DNA from: Agarophyton chilense
Lineage: Eukaryota; Rhodophyta; Florideophyceae; Gracilariales; Gracilariaceae
Assembly: GCA_030374765.1 (NCBI GenBank)
Contig: JARGXX010000129.1
Location: 744,001-808,000, forward strand
DNA length: 64,000 nucleotides
Direction of reading: 5' to 3'
Part shown: positions 39,458 to 64,000 of the stretch, one piece after another
Layout of the letters: every line of letters begins with the position of its first letter
Numbering within the stretch: position 1 is the stretch's first letter
Position numbers and translations under genes: made by a program
The notes under the pieces: model-generated
Databases searched by the model: none
What the model saw: only the letters and a program-made list of their open reading frames with translations
What the model was told of the DNA's origin: nothing

Positions 39458-39666
39458 ATTGGGCGCGACGGGACGTCGCGTCGTCATCACCTGCGGGGAT
39501 GCGAGGAAGCGTGAGCTGACCATTGGCGCCGGAAGGGCAATCAATTTGCCTAGGGACTGAAACTCCAGCGCGCCGTGAGCGCTGGCCATTGATGCATCGC
39601 CGGCGTATTCCTCGCGTTGCGTTGGCAAGATGGTCCATTGGCTTCTTCTCCTCTGACGGTCATTGG
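39458..39666 (+). promoter_or_regulatory. Cluster of ATTGG (inverted CCAAT) boxes upstream of aORF copy 2
   Basis: ATTGG occurs at 39458, 39522, 39637 and 39662, usually as CCATTGG, within 210 bp and just 5' of the aORF. NF-Y-type CCAAT boxes act in either orientation. This may be the promoter that drives the aORF inward from the 3' end of the element. The evidence is motif-only. Confidence 0.35.
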
Positions 39667-41868
39667 GGCCTTCCTTAGTCTCCGATCTTCCTTTGGCGAA
39701 CCTCCGCGCTCCGTCCCCCGTGGCTCAAGCCTGTCAGTCGGCTTGGGTCAATTAAGTCATCTCGTCTTCCCATCGTGGTTGCGCGCGATGCCGAACTCGC
39801 CTTATAAGCCTGTCGGGTACACTCCTCTCCCTCCAGACTTTTTCATTTCCGTCGAATTTCCTATCCACTTCCCGGCGGACCAGTCGGTGGGCAGCGGCAT
39901 CATTGATTCGAACAACCAAGCGGGGAGCTCCTCGGGATATGAAGGAGCTTATGAACGTCCCGGGGACCACTATGACCATACCATCGGACGAAACCCGCTG
40001 GCAGTGAGTCATGCCATTCTTCCCTCCTCTGTGGAAGTATACCAAAGATTCTGTCCTATGTATCTCGACGCCCGGAGGTTCGCAAAAATACCCGATTTCC
40101 GGGGGGTCAGCAAGAACGCGCGCAGCGTCTCGTGGAATAACCGATGGTTGCATTGTCCTGTGGATCCGCGATCGGCGACGCGCTGTCGCACCTTCATCCA
40201 AGCGGACATGCCGTACGTCCGCTGCGAGGAGGAAGCCGAGTACCAGTTCAGGGTGAAAAACTCCTTTTCGACCTATACACGGACTTTATCTCGCCTCATG
40301 TGAGATTTCCTCCGGGGGGTCACAACCTCTTGGTGCTCATGTGCTTCCGTCCGACGTATGACCGCCTGTTTTGGATGTCCAATAGGGTTTATTGGAACGA
40401 GATGCAAGAGCTCGATGGTCGTTTACGTCAGTCCCTGGAGTTCTTCTTCTGCTTGCGCCAGGTGGAGTTTCACGACATGAGCGCCGACAAACGTCCTCCA
40501 TTATGTCTCTCGTTGCCCCGGGTGGATGAGAACCAATAGGCCATGTACTGGTCGGTCTCGCCACTCCTTTTGGTCCTCACGCCATCCGTGGTGGCGTACT
40601 ATTCGTCCCAAGTCATGGGCGACGACAATGACCAAAGGTCTTGGTTTTCCTGGCTGGTGCTCTTCGTTGAGTTCTGCGTGATGTCTTTTATGGTCTTCCT
40701 GGGTACCCCGAAATACGGCGTCCGCGCTAATGTCCGTTCGCAGGATTGGAGGGTATGGAACGACGAGAACATACCCTGTCGTCAAGGTCGTCTTATCCCG
40801 CTCCAGGACATCATAATCTATTTCCTAAGGAACCTCGGCATTCAGAATACCGTCCGTGGGTCCCAGTTCGACGTCGACGAGGCCTAGGTCTTTTTGGATC
40901 ATTTACTACAGGTCGAGTGGGGCAAGACTCCCGGGTTCTTTTGGTATGACCACGATACGGACTCGTTCAAGCCGATTCCGCTACATCTGAAGGGCCGGGA
41001 CGACGCTTGTGCCGATCCCGCCAAGCCTTTGAGGAATCAACCATTGGACATTCCGAGGCGTAATGTGCCCGACTATTACCCGAAAGCCATTGGTTTCAAT
41101 CCCCTGTGCTTCGAGCCTGATGTGGAAGCCACGCCGTTGGTTCCAGCTGGTTTGTCCGATGGAGAATCCTTCGGTGAAGATCCCTTCGTCCTACCCATGG
41201 AGGGCGTCAATCCTCAGGTGGAGTCCGCTGTTGTGTTGCCGAACACTTCCCTTCCTCCAGCTCCTCCGGGCGCTGCTCCTCAGGGTGAACTCTCGTATGA
41301 GCCGCCCGTCGCCGAGGTGGACATCTCTCCTGTCGAGGTCACTGTGGAAGCCGAAAGTCTTGTAGGTGATGGGCTGGCTCAGACGTCCACTGGGGGCGTT
41401 GGCATCGCCCCTTCCTCTCCGTTGCCTCATTTTCCCGCTTCGGTCAAGGCTGCAGCCGCGGATCTCCATCATGTCTGCCGTGCAGTTGGTATCACTGCCT
41501 CGATGGACATTGCGACAGTCCTGTGGGAAGCTTGCTTCTGGGCGCGTCGCTCGGCCAGCTACGCTGCGGTTGTCCAACAGGGTCAGGATCTGAAGACCGC
41601 CATGGTCAATGTCCTGCAACAGAATGCAAAAATGATGTCCCAGAGTGTGACTGCCGACTTGGATGCCCGGTATGGTGTAAATTTGAGCAACCGGGAGGCT
41701 TCCGATGCTGACAATAGTTTCTCAGGCAAAACAACGCCGAAGAAGCGTCCTCGGTTCGCTGGGGCCGGTCCTAGTGGTACAGTAGGCGCCTCGGGTGCCC
41801 TTAGTCTCGGTTTCGCTCCTGAAGGTTTGAATGAGGACGACGGAATTACTCCTGCGCCGCCCTTGTGA
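39617..41868 (+). pseudogene. aORF copy 2: accessory protein of chromodomain gypsy C
   Basis: Opens at 39617 (Met 39788 is an alternative start) and runs to the stop at 41868, with one frameshift near 40250 and two TAG stops (40537, 40885). The core is distantly like aORF copies 1 and 3: FFCLRQVEFHDM aligns with TRPLLRAEFRYM, LTPSVVAYYSSQV with LPPVFTYLGSYLL, and IPLQDIIIYFLRNLG with IPLGGVTNCEEVAAL. The C-terminal 300 residues are acidic and Pro-rich, followed by a helical segment (AADLHHVCRAVGITASMD, then VVQQGQDLKTAMVNVLQQ) and a basic patch TPKKRPRF that could be a nuclear localisation signal. It ends only 66 bp from the convergent chromodomain ORF. No known domain is seen and the function is unknown. 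Confidence 0.7.
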
Positions 41869-41933
41869 GCCTTGTTGGTGTTCGAAGCGCTTCCGCGAAC
41901 CTTGAGGACATGGCGAGGGCTGTTAGGCCTCTG

Positions 41934-42464
41934 TTAGCTTGTAAAATAAAGTAAGGTTTTTGCTTTCCTAAGGTCGCTCCTATATCTCAAACGTGCGTGC
42001 CTTGGGACGGCGTCCAAGCTTGAGAACGTTTGAGGTCTTCCTTTGGTGTTGCCTGAGGACTGGCGTTGTTCCCTGATCCTGGCGCTCCGGCGAACCGTCG
42101 TGCTCCGGCGAACTTTCGTGTCGGGAGGCATTTCGAGATTCGTTTTGGTATTATTCGGGTCAATGATTGCCCTCTCTTGAAGGCCGGGCTCCGTGTGGCC
42201 GATTCTGCGAAAATGGCGGGCGATAAAATTAGCCGGAATGGTTTGAGGCTCTTGCCAAGTGTCTTCCACAGGTGTGTAGCCGAACCAACCGACGCGATAT
42301 CGCATAGTTCCATCTTCTCCCCAACCGGCGGAGATGATGCGCTCAATCACATATTCCGGTTGGTGTTCATTCTCCGGAAGGAGAGTGCGGTCTAGAGGGG
42401 CGAATCCATCGGAGTCGGTTGGAAGAGATGGGTCATCGTCATTGGCATTGACCATCGGGTCCAT
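41934..42464 (-). pseudogene. Chromodomain end of gypsy C pol
   Basis: Chromodomain with EYVIERIISAGWGEDG, MRYRVGWFGYTPVEDTW and QEP, including the aromatic and W residues of the methyl-lysine cage region. In chromoviruses this tail directs integration to marked chromatin. A basic Arg-rich C-terminus follows. It shares a frame with the integrase piece at 42534-43256 but is separated from it by a stop, and it converges on the aORF with a 66-bp gap. Confidence 0.85.
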
Positions 42465-42533
42465 GGGGCTAGTCGGGTCCGCGGGGACTGCCTTAGGGGG
42501 TGTGGGGAATTTAGCGTCGACCTGAGGTCGTAC

Positions 42534-62833: not shown

Positions 62834-63211
62834 CAGTCGGTCCCACCGGGTCGCGCAGCGAAGGCGCTCTTTGCGACATAGACGTAGTAAAAGTGACCGT
62901 TGTCTTAATTACTCCCCCATCTTCACGCGAAGCGCGGAAACATCCCCCGGGAATACGGGATGGCCATGGCCAATGAATATCTGGTCAACCGGTGGCTAGG
63001 TCCGCGGCGCGGTGAGCGGCTGGTTTTCCAGTGTAGTTTAGCAGCAGCACGAACAGGGCGAACGTCCATCCCGATGGGAAAACCGTGATCACGGGATTTA
63101 GCCAGTGTTCTGGATGAAAACCATCTAGTGTGGGTTGCCTACCCTGCGAGGAGGAACAAAGGCTGCTCGTCTCCATTCCACCTTGGTGGTTGTTTCCGTG
63201 TGGACGGGGAT
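62834..63211. other. Convergent gap between aORF and chromodomain ORF of element D
   Basis: About 380 bp with no ORF of note. Both 3' ends meet here, so polyadenylation signals for both transcripts are expected; none is obvious. Confidence 0.4.
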
Positions 63212-63922
63212 CTAACCAACCTGGGCGTTACACAGCGTAGCTGGAGTCGCGGTACCCGCTTGGCGGTGATATCGTACCACCTGGGAACGGGGAAGATGCT
63301 CGATTGGCTCGTCGGAGTTAAACGAAGCATCGTATCCGTACCAACGGACGAGGTATTGTAAAGTCCCGCTTTCGTCGTACGAGTGCCCGAGGATTCGGTC
63401 GACCACATACTCTTGTATGTATACTTCCCGGCCCTGCCGTGTGGTGGTAACACCAGCCGAAGTCTCGGTGGGTTCCCCGCTGGGGTAGTTCCCGTTGGAC
63501 AGGCGTTCCGCGCTTTCCTCCCGGTAATCCGGTCGTACCGCGAGTCTGCGGTTATCCCGTCGTAAACTACCGCTATTGCGGGATAGCGTCTCCGCTGCAG
63601 CGGGTGTCTGCCGTGCACGCGGGGGTGTGGTCGGGTCAAGTGCCGCCTGAGACGGATGGCGGGCACGTGCTGTGCGATCCGCCTCCCCAGCGGGGTCCGT
63701 GGCCCAGCACGAGCGGGCTGACACTTCGCTCGCCGTGGGACGCCGCTCGGCGGGCGCCGGCTCTTCCCCTCGGGGGGTGTCGCCGTGATGCGCCGCGCGC
63801 GAGGTCTCAAAAAATTCACCCTTTTTTGGGGCAGCATTTTTTGAAAAAATTGCTTTGCCATCGGGCGCCGCGCGCGAGCCCTCAAAACATTCACCCTTTC
63901 TGGGGCCAGGATTTTTTTTCAA
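63212..63922 (-). CDS. Chromodomain end of element D pol
   Basis: Open 236-codon frame. The chromodomain reads EYVVDRILGHSYDESGTLQY then LVRWYGYDASFNSDEPIEHL and RSQVVRYHRQ, close in layout to that of element C. N-terminal to it lies a long Arg/Pro/Ala-rich linker and a duplicated peptide (GECFEGSRAA / GEFFETSRAA) produced by a DNA tandem repeat. The Met at 63922 may not be the true start, since integrase is expected upstream beyond or near the window edge. Chromodomains steer integration to modified histones. Confidence 0.8.
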   Translation of the reverse strand: MKKNPGPRKGECFEGSRAAPDGKAIFSKNAAPKKGEFFETSRAAHHGDTPRGEEPAPAERRPTASEVSARSCWATDPAGEADRTARARHPSQAALDPTTPPRARQTPAAAETLSRNSGSLRRDNRRLAVRPDYREESAERLSNGNYPSGEPTETSAGVTTTRQGREVYIQEYVVDRILGHSYDESGTLQYLVRWYGYDASFNSDEPIEHLPRSQVVRYHRQAGTATPATLCNAQVG

Positions 63923-63949
63923 AAATCCTTCCTTTCCACGGGCAGACTT
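63789..63949. repeat. Imperfect tandem duplication (~80 bp x 2)
   Basis: GCCGCGCGCGAG..CTCAAAA.ATTCACCCTTT is repeated with a shift of about 80 bp, each unit ending in an A/T-rich hairpin (TTTTTTGAAAAAATTG; TTTTTTTTCAAAAATCC). The units keep the pol frame. They are distinctive because the surroundings are GC-rich. Confidence 0.6.
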
Positions 63950-64000
63950 CCCATTTCCAACGTGTGCGTCTCCCGGCTTTGCCGGTACTTGACTCTCCCC

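Follow-up and report, generated by a model that had tools for sequence, protein, structure and literature searches.

A conserved accessory gene antisense to gag-pol in chromodomain Ty3/gypsy elements of the red alga Agarophyton chilense

In several long terminal repeat (LTR) retroelements of plants the interval from pol to the 3′ LTR holds, on the strand opposite to gag-pol, a long open reading frame (ORF) without clear protein relatives; for these frames, termed aORF-3R and exemplified in PMC7264820 by maize Grande gene23, Silene Retand and rice RIRE2, a regulatory role has been proposed. Retand elements carry the TRP28 domain (PF04195) and are described in PMC11963269 as a non-chromovirus lineage, and both sources discuss the antisense arrangement of Grande, Retand and human T-lymphotropic virus (HTLV) as regulatory. 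Retroviral antisense genes such as that of HTLV have an antisense promoter inside the 3′ LTR (PMC7264820), and Tekay chromoviruses have 5′ accessory ORFs conserved within a chromovirus group (PMC11728184). Here we analyse a 64,000-nucleotide window of Agarophyton chilense DNA (the whole stretch, C128:744001-808000 of the 79.8-Mb, 135-contig assembly that was searched), in which an element that we call D carries a long gene antisense to gag-pol, with related genes in elements A and C. We favour, with a probability of somewhat under one half (about 0.45), the view that a chromodomain Ty3/gypsy lineage has conserved here an accessory gene whose protein would regulate the element in trans.

D belongs to the chromodomain Ty3/gypsy elements. 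Its pol has the gypsy order of reverse transcriptase (RT), RNase H and integrase followed by a C-terminal chromodomain, as in Ty3/gypsy chromoviruses (Pfam order RVT_1, RT_RNaseH, H2C2, rve, Chromo). In D-type elements gag, with its CCHC knuckle, and pol form the sense strand, which reads leftward in the window, and in L046 the D-type pol frame is open for 1823 codons with RT, RNase H, integrase and chromodomain. The antisense gene lies on the opposite strand between the chromodomain and the 3′ LTR and converges on pol, starting 97 bases inside the 3′ LTR edge and ending 378 bases short of the pol stop. The features are:

60035..60039, no strand: 5-bp target-site duplication TTTCC, with the same 5 bp beyond the 5′ LTR
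60040..60891, minus strand: 3′ LTR of D, 852 bp
60892..60901, minus strand: polypurine tract adjoining the 3′ LTR (TATCCCCCCC on the plus strand)
60989..61801, plus strand: first open piece of the antisense gene, 271 codons, with the Ser/Pro-rich N-terminus and the first half of the core
61802..61804, plus strand: interrupting in-frame TGA
61805..62833, plus strand: second open piece, 342 codons and a stop, with the second half of the core, the acidic Pro-rich stretch and the C-terminal FLRxVGL motif
63212-63214, minus strand: pol stop
63284..63409, minus strand: chromodomain PF00385 near the C-terminal end of pol, profile match E 2.4e-9

The 5′ LTR lies beyond the window near C128:814930-815780, about 10.9 kb to the right of the 3′ LTR, and the pair is 99.3% identical over 851 bp. 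An earlier sequence-only reading of the window had placed a large antisense ORF between chromodomain and 3′ LTR in both C and D. That position holds for D; in C the gene does lie beside the chromodomain, but no second LTR was found. The 615 open codons that it gave for D are in fact divided by the TGA. An antisense gene serving as a missing gag was considered and rejected, since these elements already have a full pol and, on the sense strand, a gag of their own with a CCHC knuckle. A DDE_Tnp_4 transposase remnant (window 59613-60452, minus strand, E 1.2e-9), whose program-made ORF extends into the LTR, borders the D 3′ LTR on its outer side; D seems to have inserted in or beside it. Hairpins with 5-bp stems number 25 in window 60040-64000, against a maximum of 19 in 20 shuffles.

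The conserved ORF of D, antisense to gag-pol and between pol and the 3′ LTR, has the arrangement of the plant aORF-3R in a different setting: the hosts there are plants, whereas here pol bears a chromodomain, the host is a red alga and no plant relative was among the proteins returned by the protein searches. Neither Retand hallmark, TRP28 or a non-chromovirus pol, was found: at an E cut-off of 1, PF04195 matched none of four D-type proteins and none of the ten members of the protein alignment, and a chromodomain pol is present in D, in C and in the group 2 and 3 loci L036-L047 (groups as below). Genes of the HTLV type likewise combine antisense coding at the 3′ end with a start near the 3′ LTR, but belong to an unrelated host and element lineage; the HTLV antisense protein is a bZIP protein, whereas the predicted antisense proteins here have no bZIP match in Pfam. 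With chromoviruses D shares gag, RT–RNase H–integrase, a C-terminal chromodomain, LTRs and a 5-bp duplication, and differs in its extra antisense gene and in the roughly 450 residues between integrase and chromodomain (L046 pol residues 1304-1759, little conserved between groups), a spacer unusually long for a chromovirus. Tekay accessory ORFs are also kept within a chromovirus group but differ in position, being found 5′ rather than in antisense orientation at the 3′ end (PMC11728184). The layout is known from plants; the protein family, the chromodomain lineage and the host differ. In the titles, abstract starts and term counts of open-licence literature we recognised no antisense gene in red-algal LTR elements and no mention of this protein family; an undescribed family is named here, open copies included, within one genome. 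With no detected kinship to the plant or retroviral antisense genes, a protein encoded at this position by a red-algal chromodomain lineage would represent an independent instance of their strategy, and suggests that LTR elements face some general problem to which inward coding from the 3′ LTR is a solution.

The gene recurs across the genome, where all counts are lower bounds and the scored lists favour well-preserved copies. The D-type gene was found at no fewer than 204 loci, and the A and C genes represent two further large families with at least 150 scored matches each. These figures come from the best candidates scored: 118 of 1646 for the second half of the D gene, 142 of 1313 for its N-terminal part, 150 of 1319 for the A gene, 150 of 572 for the C gene and 150 of 3276 for the D RT. 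Queried with the second half of the D-type gene, scored copies sort by identity and matched range into group 1 (the D type, seven copies at 94-100%), group 2 (53-59%) and group 3 (57-65%). An ATG-to-stop ORF of at least 590 amino acids is present in 14 of the 30 D-type loci L006-L035 (in L028, one of these, a TGA close to the end shortens the frame), many scored D-type copies have frames open for about 600-680 codons, and stop-free matched frames have 611 codons in the A type and 698 and 748 in the C type. Since intact copies exist elsewhere in the genome, the antisense feature is not a chance ORF.

The sequence-only reading had also proposed a core common to the three proteins and had named a profile search as its test. 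BLASTP aligned the A and D proteins at 37% identity over 169 amino acids (E 2e-29, a single comparison). When the combined D/A profile was compared with the C profile, hhalign returned a probability of 93.4% (E 2.5e-7, score 64.7, 250 columns in order), as against scores of at most 25.1 for one reversed and 30 column-shuffled controls, the shuffled profiles having about 431 match columns versus 715 in the real one. We conclude from these alignments that the three antisense proteins are homologous, A clearly near D and C distant, in agreement with that proposal. Protein searches returned 16 distinct homologues (4, 5 and 11 per search), three of them without a species name; those named are Gracilariopsis chorda P0002 (617 amino acids, 53% identity) and Agarophyton chilense P0006-P0017. 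None of 22 pattern matches in viral contigs was confirmed as a relative. Copies of the antisense gene also occur about 9.2 kb apart on one strand (C77:296720/305969 and C68:3139012/3148209/3157406), which suggests tandem elements with shared LTRs.

The gene is linked to RT and lies antisense to it. An RT match lay no more than 12 kb from 58 of the 118 scored genes, and the gene was antisense in all 58, although orientation had not been preset. Starting from the 150 best D-RT matches, the gene was found 2-8 kb downstream on the opposite strand in 119 (second-half and N-terminal gene matches pooled), a count for which the antisense side was required; for two of the 150, a further copy lies on the same strand no more than 9 kb away. 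Of the 31 RT matches with no detected gene, those on C105 and C37 lie close to a DNA-level match to the gene, two are the gene-losing copies described below, and 27 are undecided, not shown to lack it.

Substitution patterns point to coding-frame constraint at depth. Ratios of non-synonymous to synonymous substitution (dN/dS) between groups were 0.146-0.244 for the whole gene in four pairs, with between-group medians of 0.17, 0.29 and 0.21 for its second half, and 0.150 and 0.191 for pol in the two computable pairs, the third being saturated; these between-group ratios are only rough because dS is 1.1-3.1 and mostly saturated. The ratio of uncorrected proportions (pN/pS) was 0.45-0.48 in the true frame as against 0.57-1.55 when the same DNA was read in its five other frames. 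The coding frame thus appears constrained between groups and closer to neutrality among recent copies, for which ratios are given below. Together with the profile alignment, the between-group ratios support the earlier suggestion that an unrecognised gene kept across diverged chromodomain gypsy elements has a function.

Conserved parts of the protein include an N-terminal stretch rich in Ser and Pro, a core spanning about 340 residues and an acidic Pro-rich stretch. Core motifs are ERRARSRxGYxVPYQ, with its Arg-rich ERRARSR, and ELPPVxTYxGS, and the terminal motif is FLRxVGL...GDxAAMR. The acidic tail described previously for C and D recurs, with a net charge of -18 in the last quarter of the D-type protein L002 and, in the C-type protein L050, of -16 in the third quarter and -8 in the fourth; the C-type protein also has a KKRTR cluster near its end. 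None of five proteins has a membrane-like segment on the simple Kyte-Doolittle scale (top 19-residue means 1.17-1.54). Searches for known relatives were largely empty: with E values up to 1 allowed, Pfam gave no family for two C pieces and four D-type proteins, and only weak scattered matches in the ten-member alignment (best E 0.045, each in one of ten); a profile search of the PDB found no relative; and matches in PHROGs for four proteins were at E 0.16 or worse.

We favour a regulator because of the Ser/Pro-rich N-terminus, the ERRARSR motif, the core of about 340 residues, the acidic tail in the D and C types, the KKRTR cluster of the C family and the lack of a membrane-like segment. The basis is this architecture and the parallel with the plant Grande and Retand and the retroviral antisense genes. 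The gene starts 35-97 bp from the inner 3′ LTR edge in groups 1-3 (the edge in groups 2 and 3 being placed by similarity to D), and for this reason we predict a transcript whose start lies within the 3′ LTR or next to it, driven by a promoter at the inner LTR edge. The antisense transcript would be expressed and translated from the 3′ LTR side, and the protein would act in the nucleus as a trans-acting regulator of the element.

Several observations weigh against this reading, in addition to the saturation already mentioned. The A-type protein (471 amino acids, incomplete) lacks both the basic front and the acidic tail, with quarter charges of -3, -7, 5 and -1, and we hold the regulator reading less firmly on that account. 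No DNA-binding domain was recognised in the Pfam searches, and two AlphaFold models had mean predicted local distance difference test scores of 43.8 (first 100 residues 56-88) and 37.0, low values that probably reflect a lack of diverse relatives. The antisense control frame that shares the wobble position comes near the true frame (pN/pS 0.57-0.62). Whereas dN/dS lies well below 1 between groups, as the sequence-only reading had anticipated, it is nearer neutral in recent copies: the median was 0.80 in group 1 (range 0.50-1.24, 21 pairs) and 0.55 in group 2 (range 0-2.1, 209 pairs), and disjoint pairs gave 0.79 for group 1 (spread over pairings 0.74-0.99) and 0.55 for group 2 (0.51-0.60; 19 of 21 copies, near-duplicates dropped). 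Finally, retention in intact elements, expected earlier and borne out by the 119 RT matches, has exceptions: little or nothing of the gene is left in two D-type copies whose pol is open over a long stretch. These copies, C68:2777723 and C21:169908, have an RT 98% identical to that of D and pol frames of 1919 and 1823. Their matches to a 791-bp leader-plus-N-terminal query cover its initial 125 and 72 bp and no more, and so take in the leader and no more than 46 bases of the gene; neither copy has a second-half match among those scored. The gene seems to have been lost by deletions with different end points, which argues that it is not strictly needed per copy, that the protein is supplied by others, or that the damage arose at or after insertion.

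Elements with the converse loss also exist. In group 3 the distance from RT to the antisense gene falls into a long class of 3712-3725 bp (18 copies) and a short class of 2436-2439 bp (11 copies), classes drawn from the 58 RT-paired genes, of which 57 were placed. The two differ by about 1284 bp, or 428 codons, and the recurrent open pol frames of 1847 (six matches) and 1419 codons (five matches) also differ by 428. In L043, a short-class copy (3710-7729, minus strand), the integrase core is lost in frame; L043 and L040 (group 3) both have RNase H and chromodomain with no integrase match, and L045 (group 2) retains only part of its integrase. A looser spacing that includes N-terminal matches gave 27 short, 65 long and 7 other copies (99 pairs with approximate end points, the short class including duplicates and the long class group 1 copies); integrase loss was read in the sequence only in L043, one of the 27, and in L040, which lies outside the RT list. 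The gene was open for at least 590 codons in 19 of the 27 short, 26 of the 65 long and 4 of the 7 other copies (Fisher p 0.011, short versus long), a higher open share in short-spacing copies that is suggestive only, being confounded by duplicates, age and ranking bias.

These spacing classes and sequences indicate that elements without their own integrase multiplied yet kept the antisense gene, as a putative non-autonomous subfamily. A broader reading, which we consider doubtful, is that red-algal chromodomain retroelements are two-stranded, with gag-pol on one strand and, on the other, a protein of a founding family that is kept where integrase is not; since such integrase-deleted elements still carry the gene, this protein would act preferentially in cis, on RNA, particle or chromatin site of its own element, and integrase would be borrowed from full-length relatives. 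The natural comparison is between integrase-less elements that keep the gene and gene-less elements that keep integrase.

The same elements bear on a rival explanation, in which the protein aids particle assembly, packaging or the choice of integration site, together with Gag or the chromodomain. That elements without integrase retain the antisense gene alongside the chromodomain (seen in the sequences of L040 and L043, and indicated by the 27 RT-linked short-spacing copies, L043 included) fits such a role, which we nevertheless consider unlikely given the separate Gag with its CCHC knuckle and the absence of Pfam similarity to capsid or nucleocapsid families. We judge it equally improbable that the protein counters host silencing, as a suppressor of RNA or chromatin silencing, instead of controlling the element's own transcription. 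Convergent transcription would itself yield double-stranded RNA, which makes a counter-measure plausible, and a sunflower Tekay accessory ORF has been proposed to resemble DRBM proteins (PMC11728184), but our Pfam searches detected no double-stranded-RNA-binding or other domain. It is very unlikely that the antisense transcript functions as an RNA with its coding frame a passenger: the two gene-losing D-type copies do match only the start of the region, leader included, but between-group constraint falls on the coding frame, which stays open in many scored copies. An envelope-like or movement protein is highly improbable, for although env-like ORFs occupy this same place, between pol and the 3′ LTR, the gene is on the opposite strand and hydropathy reveals no membrane-like segment. 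A chance long frame, or a mirror of sense coding, might be expected from the many overlapping open frames on both strands of this GC-rich region, but is ruled out by homologues in other species, by the true frame being the most constrained and by pol ending before the gene (6288 versus 6667 in L046, pol orientation). The conserved accessory gene with a proposed regulatory product is the reading that we retain.

The other elements of the window allow the association of gene and RT to be followed. Their features are:

1..952, minus strand: N-terminal 317 codons of the A antisense gene, which runs on beyond the window; its open relative is L061
1121..1900, plus strand: A 3′ LTR, starting near 1121 and ending at the query's end
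3934..9467, minus strand: element B, a gypsy-type element for comparison, with 300-bp LTRs (3934-4233 and 9168-9467) that are 99% identical
39422..41868, plus strand: C antisense gene region, in pieces 39617-40303, ~40276-40536, 40540-40884 and 40894-41868
42210..42356, minus strand: C chromodomain, read by eye from the translation
42534..43256, minus strand: C integrase fragment (rve E 7e-4, below Pfam's cut-off)
44587..45387, minus strand: C reverse transcriptase, 52% identical to that of D and 56% to that of group 3

The A gene is antisense and directly inside the A 3′ LTR. A third gene copy at 1-952 beside an LTR had been read before; the LTR is there, but the frame is not open, having an in-frame TAG at 506-508. 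LTR pairs of A's family occur on C1 and C33, about 7.5 and 9.1 kb apart (best 40 of 1302 matches scored). The C gene is broken by stops and frame changes, and the repeated unit that holds it begins at 39422 (best 40 of 400 matches scored). C and D integrases are 33% identical over 237 positions. Element B carries RNase H and integrase, has no plus-strand ORF of at least 200 amino acids and no antisense gene, and parts of it are only 23-28% identical to C or D; by these identities it is a distant, different gypsy-type lineage. Within the window, then, the antisense gene follows one RT lineage as judged from sequence identity, and by the same comparisons it evidently evolves faster than RT. Upstream of the C-type gene in L050, a tRNA-arm-like stretch, GGTTCGAATCC on the reverse strand, was seen by eye; ARAGORN calls no tRNA in that stretch. 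Elsewhere in the window, one 2-kb bin (32001-34000) has an AT skew of -0.45, with no tandem repeats found there, and an endonuclease-like ORF at 31543-32193 on the minus strand matches Exo_endo_phos_2 (E 1.8e-10), a kind known from non-LTR retrotransposons.

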